A stretch of 64,000 nucleotides of DNA from Kordia algicida OT-1 (GTDB taxonomy: Bacteria; Bacteroidota; Bacteroidia; Flavobacteriales; Flavobacteriaceae), in contig NZ_DS544873.1 of the NCBI RefSeq assembly GCF_000154725.1, positions 4,251,085 through 4,315,084 of the forward strand. The letters run 5' to 3'. Below, one piece after another: positions 13,907 through 48,001 of this stretch. The translations under genes were made by a program, and so were the position numbers. Each line of letters opens with the position of its first letter. Positions within the stretch are counted from its first letter, which is position 1. Under the pieces are notes generated by a model, which had not been told where the DNA came from, searched no databases, and saw only the letters and a program-made list of their open reading frames with translations.

Positions 13907-13958
13907 CGAATCCTATCAAATGCAAACTAATCGCGTCGTATTGCGTCAAATCCTGTTT
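13879..13958. repeat. 10-bp phased AATCCTGTCA array, eight units
   Basis: Eight 10-bp units without a single indel (13879, 13889, 13899 and so on to 13949), consensus AATCCTGTCA; AAT or TAT begins all but the first. It starts inside the end of copy 2 of the small protein gene and ends 56 bp before the broken third copy. Confidence 0.85.
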
Positions 13959-14014
13959 GTGTCCATATTCAAATAGCCAATTTTGAATACATAACAAAGC
14001 ATAGAAACATAGGC

Positions 14015-14228
14015 ATGATAAAAAAAGACGATATAAAAGCAATGGGGAAATCTCAACTTATGGAACGAACTCATTCACGGTATTGGTAGAGAATTAGGTA
14101 GAAGCTTCATTAACAAAACAATTGCGGAGCATCGTAAGATTTCTGAAAAGCAAGCCAAGAAAATGAAAATGGTTTCCCGACCAGAGGTACTAAAAGTATT
14201 GGATTATTTTGGTTTTGAAATCCTGTAG
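14015..14228 (+). pseudogene. Small island protein, copy 3, broken by a 4-bp duplication
   Basis: Reads MIKKDDIKAMGKSQLMEL, then loses frame and stops early. The other frame, from 14067, continues the same protein (LIHGIGRELGRSFINK ... VLKVLDYFGFEIL) to TAG 14226-14228. The cause is a tandem GAAC GAAC at 14063-14070: removing one copy restores a single 69-70 residue frame that aligns with copy 2 throughout (MGK(A/S)QL, FINK/IINE, DYFGFE/DFLGLE). It is more diverged than copies 1 and 2, so it is an older relative. Either a pseudogene or a sequence error. Confidence 0.65.
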
Positions 14229-14250
14229 GATTGAAGCTTTTTGCATCTTA

Positions 14251-14478
14251 TTATCTTTTCAAATTATGTTGCGCATTGCGAACAGCTTTAACAAGACCAG
14301 CATACGCATTTACAAAATGTTTGGAGACGTACAGGAATCCATAAATACTAACACCGACAATAATTACTTTTGTAATTGGATGCTTTAAAATTTCCTTTTT
14401 ATCAACAATAGGTTTTGTATCTGTTTTAATGGAATCTAAATTTAGCTTTTCTCTAATTGATTTTTGTTTTCTGCGCAT
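14251..14478 (-). CDS. Hypothetical 75-aa protein with one membrane segment
   Basis: A basic N-terminus (MRRKQKSIREK), a hydrophobic segment at about residues 33-52 (ITKVIIVGVSIYGFLYVSKHF) and a basic C-terminus. The codons look like real coding sequence, unlike the surrounding low-complexity DNA. It converges on the broken small-protein copy. I do not recognise it; a small membrane protein is all that can be said. Confidence 0.4.
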   Translation of the reverse strand: MRRKQKSIREKLNLDSIKTDTKPIVDKKEILKHPITKVIIVGVSIYGFLYVSKHFVNAYAGLVKAVRNAQHNLKR

Positions 14479-14606
14479 ACAAATTATTTTTTTAGGTTTT
14501 TACTATTTTTTTAAATACTCAGTGTCTCTAAACGCTGTTTTTTTTATAAAATGAAATCTCTGAATCCCATTTTGTGAAAAACAAATATTTGGAAATAGTC
14601 TGAAAA

Positions 14607-14634
14607 ATCATTTGTTCACTTTTGTAACTTGAAC
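14607..14634 (+). repeat. 28-bp inverted repeat, left arm
   Basis: Perfect reverse complement of 16616-16643 over 28 bp (inner core TTCACTTTTGTAACTTGAAC). The arms enclose about 2 kb containing the 11-bp array and the 121-bp tandem repeats. Confidence 0.85.
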
Positions 14635-14810
14635 AATTTATTAATGACTTACAAAACTTCTAATCACAAATAGGATATACACATCAGAAATAATTGAATA
14701 TCCAAAAACGAATTTTGAGAATGTGAATAGTTAAATCATTATACTAAATCGTATATTTTATAAATAATTGATATTAAGCGATATAAATTCACGGTAGTAT
14801 TTTCTAACTA

Positions 14811-15017
14811 ACTTTCAAGACACTTTTTGGTCACTCTTGAGTCACTTTTAGGACACTTTTGAATCATTTTTGAATCACTTTCAAGGTGTTTTCATGTCAT
14901 TTTTGAGTCATTTTGGGACTTTCAAGACACTTTCTGGTCACTCTTGAGTCACTTTTAGGACACTTCTGAATTACTTTCAAGGTATTTTCAGGTCATTTTT
15001 GAGTCACTTCTAGGACA
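14811..15017. repeat. 11-bp phased CACTTTTGAGT array, about 18 units
   Basis: Read in 11-bp steps from 14821, nearly every unit begins CA(C/T)TTT and ends GA(A/G)T, GGT or AGGA. There is a higher-order structure: the segment from 14811 is repeated from 14918 (both start ACTTTCAAGA), with one fewer unit in the second copy. Only the junction between the two blocks breaks the 11-bp phase. Confidence 0.85.
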
Positions 15018-15419
15018 AAAAGACAATCGCTATATTTCATATATAGAACAAAGATCGAGAAGAATATTGAGATATCATTTGTATGCTTTTTGTACCATAC
15101 AAAAGTTTCTGTATTAAAAAACAAATTAAATATTGCTAAAACCCTAAAGTAATACTTTAAGGTTTTTGAAATCAACATTAAGTATTCAGTTATAAAACAA
15201 GGTGTTGAATCTGGGCATTAAAAACTCTATTTTTAATGCCCAAATTACTATATATTTTATTGATTCATTTTCAAATTTTTTGTAGCATTTAATCCAACAT
15301 ATCATATCATAGTAAGTTGGTGCAAATAATGAAATTAACTCATCGTATTCTATGATAAAAGCAATTAAAAATCTATCTAATTTTACAACTTATTACTTAA
15401 TGATGAGTAAATATTTTCA

Positions 15420-16000
15420 ACTTATTGCTTAACAGTGAACAAAAAAAATAAAAATGATTTGATTTTTTAAAACGAAAAGAAATCTAAATTCTATTTTGAT
15501 GAGTTTTTAAAAATTTTCTTTTTTTCAGAAGTTAGATGCTTAGTATACAATACTTTAAAAAATCAAAAATAAAAGTAGTTTGATTTTTAAAACGATAAGA
15601 AGCCGACATTCCATTTTGATGTATTTTTCAAAAATTTTCTTTTTTTCAGAATTGATATAATTGATATACAGTACTTTAAAAATATAAAAATAAAAGTGAT
15701 TTGATTTTTAAAACGAAAAGAAGCCGACATTTTATTTTGATGTATTTTTCAAAAATTTTCTTTTTTTCAGAATTTATATAATTGATATACAGTACTTTAA
15801 AAATATAAAAATAAAAGTAGTTTGATTTTTTAAACAAAAGAAGCTGACATTCCATTTTGATGAGTTTTTTAAAAATTTTCTTTTTTTTAGAAGATAGATA
15901 TCTAGCATACAGAACTTTAAAAAATCAAAAATAAAAGTGGTTTGATTTTTTAAACAAAAAGAAGCCGACATTCTATTTTGATATATTTTTGTAGAAAAGA
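15420..16000. repeat. 121-bp tandem repeat, about five copies
   Basis: The landmark TTTGATTTTT recurs at 15458, 15579, 15700, 15821 and 15941, a spacing of 121, 121, 121 and 120 bp. Each unit contains AAGCCGACATTCC-like, TTTTTTTCAGAA-like and ACAGTACTTTAAAAA-like blocks. No coding potential. Confidence 0.85.
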
Positions 16001-16196
16001 TGCTTAAAACCTACAAATCGACTGTTTTCTAAAAAAAATATTTCCTCAAAACAGAAATTAAATTCATTTTCTTAGAGTTAATTTTAATTCTAATCTTCAG
16101 AAGATTGTTAAAAAAACAAATAATAATTTCATTTTCAAGCAAGTTCTATAGAGCCTACAAGTTTTTAAATGCTTTTGTACACTGCATAAAATTTTA

Positions 16197-16684
16197 TAAA
16201 TGATATTTCAATTTAGTTCTCAATCCTTGTATTGATAAAATTGAAGTGTTTTGATTTGTATGATACAAAACACGTACAAATGATATTCCAATTTCATTTT
16301 AAATCTTTGTACTGATAAAAATAGATGTCTGAATTTCAGAAGTCTTTGTAAAGTCCTAACAACGATGAAATGATAAATTGACATACTTGAAAAGAATGTT
16401 GAATCCTAAAACCAAATAAAAAACACAAATCATAATAATTTAAAAAATAGAAAATATCTCTAGCTGAAAATTAAATAGAAGCTAATTGGTAAAACAACAA
16501 AAGGTAATTAACGAGTAAAATAATAAGTAAAATAACAGTCATTTTTCAAACAACATTGCTGTGGATATCCTATCAGTATTTCTATCTAGTTAAAACTTGC
16601 TTTTGTAGGCTTTAGGTTCAAGTTACAAAAGTGAACAAATGATATTTCAAACTTATACTAAATCTTTGTTCCAATAAGCTCGAA
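16197..16684. repeat. Three ~47-bp direct repeats (AAATGATATT...)
   Basis: Units begin at about 16197, 16277 and 16638 with AAATGATATT(T/C)CAA and share AATC(C/T)TTGTA or AATCTTTGTT about 25 bp later. The third unit begins inside the right arm of the 28-bp inverted repeat. Confidence 0.6.
16616..16643 (+). repeat. 28-bp inverted repeat, right arm
   Basis: Perfect reverse complement of 14607-14634. Confidence 0.85.
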
Positions 16685-16825
16685 AAATTGTAACAGATCG
16701 TAAGTACATATAAGAGAAGAAATAATTTTTCAACTTAAATCCATTTACGCTAAAATGGTTTTGAAGGTTGCCAGCACTAAATAAAAATTCTTGAATATGA
16801 AATTGATAAAAACAAAATTACCTTT

Positions 16826-16885
16826 TATTGCGTCGAATCTAGTCGAATCGATGCTAATCGCTTCCAATCGTGGCGAATCCCATTT
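16826..16885. repeat. 10-bp phased AATCG array, six units
   Basis: Six 10-bp units without indels from 16826, all but the first starting AATC. The first unit (TATTGCGTCG) is almost the same as the unit at 13939 in the 13879-13958 array, which ties the two arrays to one family. Confidence 0.8.
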
Positions 16886-16941
16886 TAACTATTCTATTTT
16901 TTTTCATTTTTAAATAAAAAAACAATGAAAACGATACATAT

Positions 16942-16991
16942 AATCCTGTCATGCTCTTTGAAATCCTGTAGCATCACTACCAATCGATACT
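16942..16991. repeat. 10-bp phased AATCC array, five degenerate units
   Basis: AATCC at 16942 and 16962, CATC at 16972 and AATCG at 16982 keep 10-bp register; the unit at 16952 is degenerate. It is the closest array to the recombinase operon. Confidence 0.55.
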
Positions 16992-17221
16992 AGAAAATAA
17001 AAACGAGAACACAACACAAATTCATCTAAAAAAAATAAAAGGCAATTCTTTGAAGTACAAATTGTAGGATTTTAACTGTTAATTAACTAAAAACGGTTTG
17101 ATTAGGTTTCAATTCTTCGTAATATTGAAATCTATGATTTCAGCTAAATTTACAATTTTAAATAAAGGAATTTTTGCTTTAAATAGTCTCATCGCTTACA
17201 GGCGTATGATAGTTCCTTTCA

Positions 17222-17425
17222 ATGAAACATGTAAAAGATATACAGCCGTTAAAAACAATCTCAGTGGAGCAACTAAAAAGCTTCAACGGGTTTGCTGATA
17301 TATCTACTCAGGAAGCTGAGCAAATCATACATACACTCAAAGAACTATCATTAGTAACACATAACATCATTACAAGCCATGAGCAATCTTCAAGACTTCC
17401 AAAGCTTCGGAAAAAAAAGCACTAA
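17222..17425 (+). CDS. Small protein upstream of and overlapping the serine recombinase
   Basis: 67 aa, mostly helical, with a charged C-terminus (LPKLRKKKH). It ends 47 bp inside the start of the recombinase gene in another frame, so the two are likely co-transcribed and possibly translationally coupled. The sequence (TISVEQLKSFNGFADIS, then TQEAEQIIHTLKELSL) looks like a small regulatory or accessory protein. I do not recognise the family, but the position suggests a recombinase accessory factor (inference). Confidence 0.5.
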   Translation: MKHVKDIQPLKTISVEQLKSFNGFADISTQEAEQIIHTLKELSLVTHNIITSHEQSSRLPKLRKKKH

Positions 17426-35789: not shown

Positions 35790-36497
35790 TTACAGGTTTA
35801 CTTTCGTACCTATATTTTCACCAGAAACTACTTTGAGTAAGTTTCCTTTTGTGTTCATGTCAAAAACAATAATGGGCAGTGCATTTTCTTGACTCAATGT
35901 AAAAGCGGTAGTGTCCATTACTTTTAAACCTTGTTTTAAAACTTCATCAAAAGAAATATGGTCAAACTTGATGGCTTTGGTATTTTTTTCAGGATCTTCA
36001 TTGTAAATACCATCAACACGAGTTCCTTTTAAAATAACATCAGCATTGACTTCGATAGCGCGTAAAACCGCAGCAGAATCTGTAGTAAAATACGGATTTC
36101 CTGTTCCTGCACCAAAAATAACCACGCGTCCTTTTTCTAGGTGGCGAATAGCCTTTCTTTTAATGTATGGTTCTGCCACTTCTTTAATTTCTAAAGCGGT
36201 AAGTAAACGTGTGTGTACGTCTGCATCTTCCAAAGCACTCTGTAAAGCGAGTCCGTTAATCACGGTAGCGAGCATTCCCATATGATCTCCTTGTACTCTG
36301 TCCATACCATTGCTAGCACCAGCAACACCTCTAAAAATATTTCCACCACCAATTACTATGGCAACTTGGATTCCTAAATCTGTCACTTTTTTGATTTCTT
36401 CAGCGTATTCTGCCAAACGTTTTGGGTCAATTCCGTATTGACGTTCGCCCATAAGTGCTTCGCCTGATAATTTGAGTAAAATTCTTTTGTATTGCAT
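35790..36497 (-). CDS. pyrH: UMP kinase
   Basis: 235 aa from ATG 36497 ([17 protein letters not shown]), the standard N-terminus; an ATG at 36530 lies beyond the likely promoter. Amino-acid-kinase fold motifs: [48 protein letters not shown], and [13 protein letters not shown]. It phosphorylates UMP to UDP in pyrimidine nucleotide synthesis. Confidence 0.93.
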
Positions 36498-36547: not shown

Positions 36548-36776
36548 AATGTTTTTGAAAATGAAGATTATTTTTAAGAAAGATTTAAAACAGTTATGCT
36601 TTAAAAGAGTGAAATGAGTATAGATGAAATTTATTTTATTACAACTTAACTTATACGTTATATGGCTTTTACTTATAAAAAGTATAAGTTTTTTAAATAT
36701 CACAAAATATGTTAATTATATTTCTAGGAATCTCTGTTTTGTATCTTTATATAATATGAATCAAAAATTATTTACC

Positions 36777-37005
36777 ATGAAAAAAGAAAAAATTAAAATT
36801 AGGATTAAACAAAATTGAAGTCTCAAACTTGTCAACAATCACAGGAGGATATGATGAAACTTTTATTGCATTATGTAACTCTATGCAAATGGGTGATTGT
36901 GAAGAAACGGCTAATTGTGAAACGCAAGGTGGTTATGCTTGTGGAGAAACTATTGGTGCATTTTGTGGCTTTCGAACTTATGAAGGCGATAGCTGTAGTT
37001 GTTAG
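36777..37005 (+). pseudogene. Lanthipeptide-like precursor with GG leader, frameshifted after the start codon
   Basis: ATG 36777 begins MKKEKIKIRIKQN and stops. One base out of phase, the frame KKLKLGLNKIEVSNLSTITGG continues in a way typical of Flavobacteriia class I lanthipeptide leaders (Lys-rich start, LxLNKxxVSNL, GG); I write its parts as KLKLGLNKIEVSNL and STITGG. It is followed by a 51-residue core with seven Cys and eight Ser/Thr (starts YDETFIALCNS, ends TYEGDSCSC). Deleting one A from the A6-G-A6 tract at 36780-36792 joins ATG to this frame (MKKKKLKLGL). A -7-like TATCTTTA is at 36742-36749. Either a decayed gene, a homopolymer sequencing error, or slippage expression. No modification or export genes are adjacent. 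Confidence 0.65.
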
Positions 37006-37020
37006 TAGAAAAACAAAAAA

Positions 37021-37047
37021 GGATCGTCAAGTTGACGATCCTTTTTT
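37021..37047. terminator. Bidirectional terminator between precursor peptide gene and tsf
   Basis: GGATCGTCAA and TTGACGATCC form a perfect 10-bp inverted repeat around one G (37021-37041), with an A-run before and a T-run after (37042-37047). It serves the plus-strand precursor gene (stop 37005) and the minus-strand tsf (stop 37079). Confidence 0.85.
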
Positions 37048-37078: not shown

Positions 37079-38044
37079 TTATCCTAAAGATACACGTTTA
37101 AAACCTGTAACTTCAACATCTCCGTAAGAAGCAACGTATTTAGCAACTGTAGACTTTTCATCTTTGATGAAGTCTTGATCTAATAAACATTGTTCTTTGT
37201 CTAACGTAGTGTTATCAGAAACGAATCTTTCCATTTTTCCAGGTAAAATACGATCCCAGATTTTCTCAGGTTTACCTTCTGCAGCCAATTGCGCTTTAGC
37301 ATCTTCTTCTGCTTTTGCCATTACTTCATCAGTTAACTGAGACATAGAGATATACTGAGGAACATTTTTCAATGTTTTTCCTAAACGCTCTAATTCTTCG
37401 TTATCTTTTTCAATTGCAGCAATTCTAGCTTCTGTTTCAGAAGCCACATACGCAGGATCAAAATCTTTGTAAGATAATGTAGTAGCTCCCATAGAAGCAA
37501 CTTGCATCGCTAAGTCTTTTGCTAATGTTTCAGCATTGTCAACTTTTGCAGATAATCCAACAACAGCAGCAATTTTATTGATATGTACGTAAGAACCAAC
37601 ATAAGCAGCTTCTAATTTTTCAAAAGCTTTTAAGTCAATCTTCTCACCGATAACACCAGTTTGCTCCGTTAACTTTTCAGCAACTGTGATTCCACCGAAA
37701 TCAGCAGCTAAGAATTCTTCTTTAGTGTTGTATCCGATTGCTAAATTAGCAAAGTCTTTTGCTAAGGCTACGAAACTTTCGTTTTTTCCAACGAAGTCAG
37801 TTTCACATCCTAAAACGATAGCAACACCAGCAGTGTTGTCATCATTTACTTTTGCAGCAGCTACACCTTCAGAAGACTCACGATCTGCTCTTTTAGCAGC
37901 AACTTTCTGACCTTTCTTACGAAGGATATCAATTGCTTTATCGAAGTCACCTTCTGCTTCTACTAATGCTTTTTTGCAGTCCATCATTCCTGCACCGGTA
38001 GCTTTTCTTAATTTACCTACTTCTGCGGCTGTAATTTTTGCCAT
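37079..38044 (-). CDS. tsf: Elongation factor Ts
   Basis: 321 aa. N-terminal UBA-like domain with the EF-Ts signature LRKATGAGMMDCKKALVEA (about 12-30), then the dimerisation/core domain with TDFVGKNESFVALAKD (about 80-95) and the C-terminal module. It exchanges GDP for GTP on EF-Tu. Length is longer than E. coli EF-Ts (283 aa), as is usual in Bacteroidota. It follows rpsB, the standard order. Confidence 0.93.
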   Translation of the reverse strand: MAKITAAEVGKLRKATGAGMMDCKKALVEAEGDFDKAIDILRKKGQKVAAKRADRESSEGVAAAKVNDDNTAGVAIVLGCETDFVGKNESFVALAKDFANLAIGYNTKEEFLAADFGGITVAEKLTEQTGVIGEKIDLKAFEKLEAAYVGSYVHINKIAAVVGLSAKVDNAETLAKDLAMQVASMGATTLSYKDFDPAYVASETEARIAAIEKDNEELERLGKTLKNVPQYISMSQLTDEVMAKAEEDAKAQLAAEGKPEKIWDRILPGKMERFVSDNTTLDKEQCLLDQDFIKDEKSTVAKYVASYGDVEVTGFKRVSLG

Positions 38045-44303: not shown

Positions 44304-44960
44304 TTATGATTTTTGAATACTAAAGATATAATTTTTCTCTTTTAAGACACTTTTTTCCAAAATCAGTTCAAAGTTAAGTTTGTTATTGGAAGCTATTTTT
44401 TTTATATGTTCAATTTCACAATCTTCCGATAAAATCATCCAAGTATTTGGTGCTAAGTGTTGAGGAAGTTGTGCAAATAGTTTTTCGAAATATTCAAAAT
44501 TTTCACCACAAAACCATGCACGTTCTTTATCGTTTTGCGGCGCTTTTGGATAATATGGCGGATTGATGATGATATAATCAAACGTTTGATTGGATAAGTT
44601 TTCAAACAAATCTGAATACACAACGTTTAACGGAATTTCATTTGCTTCAGAAGCTTCTTTCAACGCACTAATTGCAATTTTATTAATATCAGAAGCGGTG
44701 ACATTTGCACCTTTAGAAGCCGCAAAAAGTGAGATGATTCCTGAGCCACAACCGAGTTCTAAAAAGTTTTTATTCTTTAAATCTAAAGGTTTTATAAATT
44801 CTAGAAAAATCTTGGTGCTTATCGTAAAATGTGGTGGAAATACTTCTGCGCTGACGTTTACCGTAATACCTTCATACGTGTAGCTTCGCTGTTTTAACGT
44901 ATATTTATCAAAGAAAAATTTCGCAACAGGAAATATGTGTTTTTTAATTTTCTTAAACAT
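44304..44960 (-). CDS. Class I SAM-dependent methyltransferase with NPPY motif, 218 aa
   Basis: Motif I FLELGCGSGIISLFAA (about 71-86), a following ASDINK acidic loop, and motif IV IIINPPYYP (about 131-139). NPPY is typical of methyltransferases acting on planar nitrogens (PrmC/RsmC/TrmN6-like). The substrate is not readable from sequence. Fourth... position in a tight operon: 12 bp after the B12-type radical SAM gene. Confidence 0.8.
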   Translation of the reverse strand: MFKKIKKHIFPVAKFFFDKYTLKQRSYTYEGITVNVSAEVFPPHFTISTKIFLEFIKPLDLKNKNFLELGCGSGIISLFAASKGANVTASDINKIAISALKEASEANEIPLNVVYSDLFENLSNQTFDYIIINPPYYPKAPQNDKERAWFCGENFEYFEKLFAQLPQHLAPNTWMILSEDCEIEHIKKIASNNKLNFELILEKSVLKEKNYIFSIQKS

Positions 44961-44972
44961 ATTTTCTGCGGA

Positions 44973-46493
44973 TTATTCTGAGTAGAAACCTTCAATTTCT
45001 GGTTGACGGTATTTCCAAATTTTATGCAATACTTTAATTTCATACGGAAATTTGTACCAACCATATTTAAAGCGATATCCTGAAACTAATTTTAGCAAGC
45101 TTTTCTTGTAGCCTTTAATTCTAAAATCGGAAGCAGTTGGATAATAACCGTTGAGAACTGTTTCAAAATTCTGGATTTTATCAATCATATACGGTTTCAA
45201 CCAAGGTGTTAGCGGATTTCTTCGCAAGTCAAATTTTTCCCAACTCGGTTCAATCCATTCTTCTAATTTTTCAGGAAAAGAAAATCCTGCATCTACAATT
45301 TGTTGATACAACTCCGAACCTTCTGTTGGCACCGGACTATACAAATAAATGATGATTTCCGCATCCGCATTAATCGCTTTTATTTCACGAATAAAATTGA
45401 TGTCCCACAAAATCTGTTCGTAGACTTTTTGTTCGTTTTCGCCAGGCAAACCTAGTACAAAGGACAATTCAGGAATAATATCAACATCTTTCATGCGTTT
45501 CACAAAATCCTTAATCATCTGTCCAGATTGTGTGCCACCTTTGTTCATTTGCTTCAACACTTCATCATTTCCAGTTTCAGCTCCTAAAAACATCATGCGG
45601 CAACCTGCTTTTCGCATGTAATGCAAATCTTCGTCAGAATATTTATTAATCGTATCAATGCGACCTTCGCCCCACCATTCGATATTATCATCCATCACAA
45701 GTTTGGAAAATTCCATCACACGTTTTCGAGACGTAAAAAAGTTATTATCGTGAAATTCTACCGCATCAATCTGATACTTTTCTTTAAAATATTTTAAATC
45801 TTTATAAATGGTTGAAGCTGCTTTTGCCTTCCATTTGGCATTGTAAATTGGCACAACCGCACAGAAAGAACAGGTAAACGGACAACCCATACTTGAGTGA
45901 TACGCAAAGGTTTTTTGTCCCATAAACGTTTTTGCCAAATAACGCTCTAGCGGATAAAACGTATTGAAATATTCGTACGGATATGGAGGTAAAGAATCCT
46001 GATCGAGCAAGGCTTCTTTTACCGTTTGCACAATTTTCCCGTTTTCATCTTTAAAGATTAAGTTGCGAATGAGTTGTAATTTCTCATCGCTTTTTCCTTC
46101 TAAAACATCTAATAATTTTGGAAACGTATTGTCGCCAGGTCCGTTGATGATATAATCAACATACCCTGAATTTAAACATACTTTGTATTGATTGGAAGCA
46201 AAATAGCCGCCCCAAATATTTATAGCATTTGGGTATAATTCCTTGATCTTTTTTGCATACGGAATTGCCTGTTTCAATTGTGGTCCGGGCATTACAGTGA
46301 GACAGAAATATTTAAATTCGCCTGTAGCAAAATAACCTGAAATTTTTTTCCAAGGATCGGTTTCCATGTTTCCATCTACAAAAACATAGTCATATTTTCC
46401 ATGAATTGCCGCGCCAACCTGAATGATGGTATTGGGCAAACGATGCTTTGCATTCGCGCTTCTCGGATTGAATATGATGATCTTATTTCCCAT
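44973..46493 (-). CDS. B12-binding-domain radical SAM protein, 506 aa
   Basis: Start taken at ATG 46493 (MGNKIIIFNPRSANAKHR), which avoids overlapping the upstream gene; ATG 46535 is the longer alternative. The N-terminal ~150 residues look like a cobalamin-binding domain (VFVDGN, then INIWGGYFASN and VDYIINGPGDNTFPKLLD). The radical SAM cluster motif GCPFTCSFC (CxxxCxxC, about 205-212) and downstream HDNNFF, GRIDTINKYSDED, GAETGNDEVLKQMNKG and ELSFVLGLPGE follow. Such enzymes do methylations or C-C rearrangements. Substrate unknown. Confidence 0.85.
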   Translation of the reverse strand: MGNKIIIFNPRSANAKHRLPNTIIQVGAAIHGKYDYVFVDGNMETDPWKKISGYFATGEFKYFCLTVMPGPQLKQAIPYAKKIKELYPNAINIWGGYFASNQYKVCLNSGYVDYIINGPGDNTFPKLLDVLEGKSDEKLQLIRNLIFKDENGKIVQTVKEALLDQDSLPPYPYEYFNTFYPLERYLAKTFMGQKTFAYHSSMGCPFTCSFCAVVPIYNAKWKAKAASTIYKDLKYFKEKYQIDAVEFHDNNFFTSRKRVMEFSKLVMDDNIEWWGEGRIDTINKYSDEDLHYMRKAGCRMMFLGAETGNDEVLKQMNKGGTQSGQMIKDFVKRMKDVDIIPELSFVLGLPGENEQKVYEQILWDINFIREIKAINADAEIIIYLYSPVPTEGSELYQQIVDAGFSFPEKLEEWIEPSWEKFDLRRNPLTPWLKPYMIDKIQNFETVLNGYYPTASDFRIKGYKKSLLKLVSGYRFKYGWYKFPYEIKVLHKIWKYRQPEIEGFYSE

Positions 46494-46516
46494 TAATTTA
46501 GTATCGTATTTTTGAT

Positions 46517-47587
46517 TTAAAAAGAACTGCAACAACGACTACACGCAGGCAATAAACCTCCGTTTTTAGATAATGTAGCACGGAATTTCGACAAGACGCG
46601 TCCATTCCAGATTTGCTTTAAATTTTCTTCGTAAATATTGCCAAGTTCCAAGTTGTAACAACGTCCGTGTGCAGGAATTACACTTCCATCCGATTTAATC
46701 ATCACGTTGGTAAACACATCATTGCACATTTTCCCAATCTTGATTTCTGGCTTATAATAGAATTCCTTTAGCTTTTCTTTTGAAGCAATTTCTGGAGAAA
46801 AATTCACAGGAAATTTATCATTTCTAGATTTTATCATAGCAATTTCGTCCCAAAGTGCATCCAAATCAAAATTATTAATATTTACTTCATCAACATTAGA
46901 AGCTGTTGCAGGATAGGAATTTGCCCAAACTTCATTATGAACATCTGCAATGCGTTGTTCGGTAAAGTTGGAATGCATAAATCCGATTTGTTGCAATGGA
47001 TAGTCTTTAAAGAAATCTAGAAATTCATTTAAATATCCAATATTCCATTCAGTAATGACACAAAATATAGCAATCGTCGCTTTCGGATTGATAGAAAGCA
47101 CTTTTTCAATACCTTCTACTGCTTTTTGAAATGACTTTTTGTGTCCGCGAATTTCATTGTGAATGTCTTGCGGACCATCAAGTGAAATATAAATAGAAGT
47201 ATCGGCAACCACATTCGCTTTCTGTTTTAAGGTAAGCGCATTTGTAGTTACAGAAGTTTCAATTCCTTTTTGTTTTGCATATTGTAACGAAGCTTCTAAA
47301 TGCGGATATACCAACGGTTCTGTAAAAGCATATCCCAATTTTGAAATCGGATAATATTCCGCCATTTGATCGATAATTTTTTCAATCAACGGTAACGGCA
47401 TGTTTATCGGATGCGTTCCTACTAAGTTTTGTGCAAAATTCGTATCCAAACTTTTCGTACCAACATCACACATTTTACAATGCAAGTTGCACACATTATT
47501 CACGCCCAAAATGATCCATTCTGGAGGAAAAAGATACTTGCTAGGAAGTACTTTTTTGTTTATTTTTTTAAATGTGGCAACACTCAT
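46517..47587 (-). CDS. Radical SAM/SPASM protein, 356 aa
   Basis: Radical SAM motif NNVCNLHCKMC with Cys33, Cys37 and Cys40, then TTNALTLKQKA-like and SLDGPQDIHNEIRGHKKSF motifs. A C-terminal SPASM-type region includes GRCYNLELGNIYEENLKQIW and ends CSRCCSSF. SPASM enzymes hold extra FeS clusters and act on peptides or other substrates. No precursor peptide gene is next to it. First gene of the 41.3-47.6 kb minus-strand operon. Confidence 0.85.
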   Translation of the reverse strand: MSVATFKKINKKVLPSKYLFPPEWIILGVNNVCNLHCKMCDVGTKSLDTNFAQNLVGTHPINMPLPLIEKIIDQMAEYYPISKLGYAFTEPLVYPHLEASLQYAKQKGIETSVTTNALTLKQKANVVADTSIYISLDGPQDIHNEIRGHKKSFQKAVEGIEKVLSINPKATIAIFCVITEWNIGYLNEFLDFFKDYPLQQIGFMHSNFTEQRIADVHNEVWANSYPATASNVDEVNINNFDLDALWDEIAMIKSRNDKFPVNFSPEIASKEKLKEFYYKPEIKIGKMCNDVFTNVMIKSDGSVIPAHGRCYNLELGNIYEENLKQIWNGRVLSKFRATLSKNGGLLPACSRCCSSF

Positions 47588-47713: not shown

Positions 47714-48001
47714 CTATAATTTATCCTTTAAATCTTGTCTGCCAACGATGGTCATTATCTCAACAGTATTATTTTGTATTCTAAAATAAATACTATCTGC
47801 TCCACAAACACATCGTCTATATCCTGTTTTTATAAAATCAACGGCTTCAAAAGAAAAAGGTCTGTTAGCTATGATGTCGAAATGTGTGAAAAAAGAATTA
47901 AAATACGCGTCCGCTTGGGTAATTCCAAACTTTTGAACTCCGTATTGATGAATCCGAATTAGATCATTTTTAGCTTCATTGCTCAAACAATATTTAGCCA
48001 T
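47714..48001 (-). CDS. parE: RelE/ParE-family toxin, 95 aa
   Basis: ParE/RelE fold: AKYCLSNEAKNDLIRIHQYGVQKFG at the N-terminus (seen as LSNEAKNDL then IHQYG), ANRPFSFEAVD, and the C-terminal CGADSIYFRIQNNTVEIMTIVGRQD. ParE members inhibit gyrase; RelE members cleave mRNA, and the sequence alone leaves this open, though pairing with a ParD-like antitoxin favours ParE. It overlaps the antitoxin by 8 bp. Confidence 0.85.
   Translation of the reverse strand: MAKYCLSNEAKNDLIRIHQYGVQKFGITQADAYFNSFFTHFDIIANRPFSFEAVDFIKTGYRRCVCGADSIYFRIQNNTVEIMTIVGRQDLKDKL

Follow-up and report, generated by a model that had tools for sequence, protein, structure and literature searches.

An out-of-frame lanthipeptide-like precursor gene between pyrH and tsf of Kordia algicida OT-1, probably a recently broken member of a dispersed precursor pool

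The stretch of the Kordia algicida OT-1 genome analysed here (64 kb, referred to as the window) contains, between two genes which from their sequences we take to be pyrH and tsf, a precursor gene whose only ATG is out of phase with the frame encoding its leader and core. The reading that we favour, with some reservation, is that of a recently inactivated orphan precursor gene of the class I lanthipeptide-like type, which belongs to a large LanA-like pool, scattered over the genome and subject to birth and death. The frameshift itself probably reflects either an unremarkable loss of a gene or an artefact.

The frame starting at 36781 is uninterrupted and encodes first KKKKLKLGLNKIEVSNLSTITGG and then a Cys-rich core (Table 1). 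It is preceded by a TGA at 36778, and its earliest ATG, GTG or TTG is the TTG at 36829, which lies within the leader. Initiation at this TTG was rejected as a source of modified peptide since the leader motif would be lost. Reaching the core frame from the ATG (36777-36779) requires a shift of +1 (or -2); a -1 ribosomal frameshift was rejected as well, because the -1 frame ends at TAA 36794-36796. An earlier note on this DNA had described a GG-leader precursor with a seven-Cys, Ser/Thr-containing core in one open frame and the only ATG one base out of phase across A6-G-A6. Both parts of this description were confirmed, the open frame comprising 74 codons with LxLxKx5L and GG, and the frame of the ATG stopping after 13 codons. 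A six-frame search of the window gave a single LxLxKx5L with GG behind it, and its tail has 51 residues and 7 Cys. As chance control, 100 order-2 Markov windows were searched, in which the motif appeared 5 times and in no case with a tail reaching 30 residues and 5 Cys. The precursor frame is thus not a chance product.

Table 1. Coordinates of the precursor gene and of its flanking elements within the window.
Feature	Position	Strand	Evidence or remark
pyrH, left border of the hot spot	35790..36497	-	conserved in 11/11 Kordia genomes
TATCTTTA, weak candidate -7 element	36742..36749	+	35 bases upstream of the ATG; last base off consensus
ATG and short frame out of phase with the precursor	36777..36818	+	read as MKKEKIKIRIKQN, then TGA
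A6-G-A6 stretch, point of frame change	36780..36792	+	comparison to 21 relatives in frame at this locus
Precursor frame, 74 codons and TAG (37003-37005)	36781..37005	+	no in-frame standard start before the leader
Leader motif LxLxKx5L (LGLNKIEVSNL)	36799..36831	+	motif published for Bacteroidetes class I LanA (PMC7268733, accessible part)
Gly-Gly, presumed leader cleavage site	36844..36849	+	sequence; cleavage inferred from PMC7268733 (accessible part)
Core, 51 residues, seven Cys, Ser and Thr present	36850..37002	+	aligned with the K. periserrulae orthologue
A- and T-flanked hairpin between precursor and tsf	37015..37047	.	fold -19.3 kcal/mol
tsf, right border of the hot spot	37079..38044	-	conserved in 11/11 Kordia genomes

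According to the accessible part of PMC7268733, class I LanA leaders of Bacteroidetes carry LxLxKx5L instead of FxLD, and many of them end in GG with a C39 protease encoded in the cluster. The precursor described here has the exact LxLxKx5L, the GG leader end and the Cys-rich core with Ser and Thr in common with these LanA peptides, but differs from them by the lack of LanB or LanC nearby and by the out-of-frame start. Judged by its leader and core it is a LanA-like precursor. It had no match in NCBIfam or Pfam at E-values up to 10 and therefore matches neither of the leader families lant_leader_L1a (NF038153) and lant_leader_L1b (NF038158). Both were touched by its relatives, nine and eight of the 22 members of the family alignment, respectively, matching with E-values not above 1 (0.0012 and 0.00058 at best); the scores among the matches listed were 9.1-13.8 bits, below the curated cut-offs of 22 and 27. 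None of the 22 family members matched PADLOC at E up to 0.1, giving no link to a defence system, and a plasmid search with a 501-base region gave no match. In the wider family the precursor protein matched one of 149 genomes, its own, and the 22-row profile matched three of the 149.

A syntenic orthologue with an in-frame ATG is present in K. periserrulae DSM 25731. The core frame of K. algicida matches it with a tblastn E-value of 9e-36 and 68-72% identity, and the leader, the GG and all seven Cys are kept. Over 74 aligned codons the two genes differ at 12, 10 and 32 sites in codon positions 1, 2 and 3. The corresponding NG86 estimates are dN 0.19 and dS 1.02 (0.13 and 0.60 for the core alone) and the LWL85 estimates dN 0.17 and dS 0.67, with dS near saturation and the codon-position pattern covering the whole branch, so that it gives no date for the shift. 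As far as such codon patterns tell, the comparison shows that selection acted over most of the divergence of the two genes, with no obvious decay. The excess of third-position differences and a dN far below dS thus point to little decay of the K. algicida gene, in agreement with the earlier claim that its coding quality speaks against long decay.

The gap between pyrH and tsf is a hot spot for precursors in Kordia. Eight of the ten other Kordia genomes hold precursors there, with 21 copies in frame and one to five per genome; since the count is composed of leader-pattern and profile matches listed, it is to be read as at least 21 in frame and at least one broken. Among these 21 in-frame copies, 18 fit LxLxKx5[L/F], two fit a relaxed form and one fits neither, while in the remaining two genomes (G002 and G006) no precursor was detected in the gap by the leader pattern. 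The broken copy (G007:C13:37508-37720) resembles the K. algicida gene in that the frame of its ATG stops after five codons and the leader continues in another frame. It is decayed, its GG and part of its CC motif being altered. Its existence slightly raises the odds of natural loss relative to assembly error.

The hairpin downstream of the precursor stands out from its shuffled versions (-19.3 kcal/mol versus a mean of -4.0, z -8.0), and in K. periserrulae one of its base pairs is altered on both sides. According to the predicted fold it would probably act as a terminator usable in both directions. The consensus of the -7 element is TAnnTTTG. Its strict form was found upstream of eight of 22 starts, compared to a mean of 2.5 and a maximum of 8 in 300 shuffles. 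Elsewhere in the window a ParE-like toxin gene was detected at 47714-48001 on the minus strand, and a region of about 3.5 kb (13907-17378) is free of ORFs of at least 80 aa.

The check for related precursors in the genome of K. algicida, proposed together with the earlier note, revealed at least 84 precursor genes by profile matches at E up to 0.01, a census in which 150 of 151 candidates were scored and which misses at least two precursors located beside LanC or LanB (1588398, 3421526). Other profile counts for the same genome were at least 73, and at least 30 at E up to 0.001 with 38 of 108 candidates scored. At E up to 0.01 the number of profile matches ranged from at least 73 to at least 133 across the 11 Kordia genomes. 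The pool is mostly dispersed in the K. algicida genome, and 80 of the 84 precursors are located more than 10 kb from any LanB or LanC match. A methionine is found at the start of the match in 82 of the 84 genes and an in-frame ATG three codons earlier in one further gene (744719); the shifted copy is hence the only one without an in-frame ATG, as opposed to 83 others. A runs of at least six bases occur within 33 nt of the start in 66 of the 84 genes and A7-A8 runs in 43, so that the A6-G-A6 start is ordinary within this pool. Another member (G000:C1:1107807-1107998) carries an in-frame TAG between the leader and the Cys-rich core. Taken together with the broken copy in the hot spot of the relative, this stop indicates that the loss of single members is ordinary in the pool.

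The earlier note had also pointed to the absence of adjacent modification enzymes or a transporter and to a dependence on distant machinery. Indeed, no LanB, LanC or C39 transporter match was found within the window, and matches exist elsewhere in the genome. They comprise one LanB, four LanC-like matches (one of them partial) and six C39 matches (one of them weak), to which five SPASM matches can be added; LanB is present in all 11 Kordia genomes. Because 80 of the 84 precursors lie far from LanB and LanC, a precursor of this pool typically has no enzyme gene beside it, and the lack of one does not point to a defect. With C39 and SPASM matches included, the number located more than 10 kb from any such match is 79 of 84. 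The precursor with the shifted start is itself within 10 kb of a SPASM gene, namely the radical SAM/SPASM gene at 46517-47587 at a distance of about 9.5 kb. This gene forms a row on the minus strand (44304-47587) with genes encoding a methyltransferase and a B12-binding radical SAM protein. Nothing was found that ties it to the precursor.

If any enzyme modifies this subfamily, it would most plausibly be the LanB together with its LanC, and a radical SAM/SPASM route or plain disulfides are possible.

Three loci of the genome with LanC-like genes were noted. Near 1.588 Mb (G000:C1, L046 7899-10240) genes encoding a GG precursor, a nucleotidyltransferase-like and a LanC-like protein are arranged in an operon-like manner, and a second such group was found near 3.479 Mb (G000:C1, L048 9298-11358). 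Relatives of the nucleotidyltransferase of the latter are present in 10 of the 11 Kordia genomes, and at many, though not all, of the loci inspected they have a LanC-like gene next to them. It could be speculated that the nucleotidyltransferase activates Ser/Thr in place of LanB. At the third locus, near 3.084 Mb (G000:C1, L045 7045-10478), APH-like, HopA1-like and LanC-like genes follow one another.

In its intact form the precursor gene presumably depended on enzymes encoded elsewhere. Its LxLxKx5L leader would recruit them, most plausibly the single LanB and its LanC near 3.41 Mb, and a C39-type transporter would then cut at the Gly-Gly and export the modified Cys-rich core. A change of one base in the length of the A-rich start, which we infer to be a real mutation, would have shifted the only ATG out of phase with the core frame; ribosomes would then halt after 13 codons and no precursor would be made. 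The copy would be one of a pool of about 80 dispersed genes that has the pyrH-tsf gap as a hot spot and whose members are presumably gained, diversify and are lost.

The foremost alternative is an intact gene and an A-run indel that is an artefact of the deposited genome, introduced by sequencing or assembly. We consider this unlikely, albeit to be taken seriously. Such an error would leave a homopolymer indel as the sole damage to the gene, as seen here in data of a single strain, and with approximately two A runs per start and 84 starts one error needs only a low rate per run. However, the 164 A/T runs of at least six bases in the ORFs of at least 150 aa in the window all leave their frames open. 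Furthermore, for 13 neighbouring genes containing 40 such runs the alignments with five of the ten relatives stay in one frame, apart from the low-complexity C-terminus of rpsB, which remained unaligned in some of them. Each of the 65 remaining precursors whose start contains an A run of at least six bases is in frame, the completeness of the genome is listed as 99.99%, and a frameshifted start at the same locus is also seen in G007.

Phase variation, with replication slippage in the A-rich start toggling the precursor and the assembly capturing the off state, seems improbable. The position of the shift in an A-rich start, the abundance of A-rich starts in the family (66 of 84) and the second shifted start in G007 would fit, and PMC3711429 names, in its accessible part, poly-A/T runs with a minimum of 7 nt as a route to phase variation. 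The A6 runs nevertheless fall short of this minimum as well as of the A7-A8 runs found at 43 in-frame starts, and the copy in G007 is decayed and does not resemble a reversible state. A broader version, in which the A-rich starts act as contingency sites across the whole Kordia pool and single-base slips turn peptides off and occasionally on, appears no better and is, in our view, a little more doubtful still. If it were true, cell lines would differ in which part of a large peptide library, produced with a common enzyme set, they display, the K. algicida copy would be in its off state and the gap between pyrH and tsf would be a loading place for new members.

Least probable is a programmed transcriptional or ribosomal slippage that yields some in-frame precursor. 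An A-rich stretch does directly follow the ATG, and the accessible part of PMC3711429 accepts two shorter homopolymers in combination as a slippage site and counts A_AAA_AAG among the slippery sequences. The needed shift, however, is +1 or -2, for which a -1 heptamer leading to the TAA at 36794 is no help, and the A6 runs are under the length given there for transcriptional slippage (An with n above 7, or eight or longer). There is accordingly neither a long homopolymer nor a slippery heptamer suited to the needed shift, nor a site conserved in relatives, the orthologue of K. periserrulae and 20 other copies at the locus being in frame. No other of the 84 pool members uses a shifted start. The A6-G-A6 stretch is at best a weak candidate for a slippage site. 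The earlier suggestion of slippage as an expression switch was not borne out: members with longer A runs would show such a switch and none does, as the 83 other matches, many of them with longer runs, have an in-frame ATG, and the sole further shifted copy detected at this locus, that of G007, is decayed.

The precursor, probably inactivated only recently, draws its interest mainly from its setting. Throughout this genus, orphan lanthipeptide-like precursors turn up time and again in the same conserved gap flanked by housekeeping genes, and the genome-wide pool is mostly made up of genes located far from any modification enzyme. Searches restricted to the LanC neighbourhood, such as the range of seven genes on either side of LanC stated in the accessible part of PMC7268733, would miss nearly all members of the pool. 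The pool also raises the question whether one LanB serves many scattered substrates.

The richness of Kordia in RiPPs is already published. A literature search for Kordia lanthipeptide precursor peptides found PMC11118758 alone, and a search for precursor peptides with transcriptional slippage and bacteriocins found no publication. In its accessible part, this deep-learning mining study describes Kordia as RiPP-rich, reports up to 176 precursors on one genome in Bacteroidota and places LanC and a nucleotidyltransferase beside Kordia precursors. The same RiPP richness and the same colocalisation of LanC and nucleotidyltransferase were observed here. The accessible text makes no mention of a hot spot between pyrH and tsf or of the shifted copy.

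Among the loci of K. algicida described above, the row of APH-like, HopA1-like and LanC-like genes resembles the layout of class V lanthipeptide clusters. For the pool as a whole a close parallel is offered by the prochlorosins, in which many scattered precursors are served by one enzyme. The prochlorosins, also mentioned in the accessible part of PMC7268733, belong to another leader family and to the LanM enzyme class, whereas in Kordia the enzymes would be LanB and LanC. Both systems nonetheless share a large and dispersed pool of precursors, most of which are encoded far from the enzymes.
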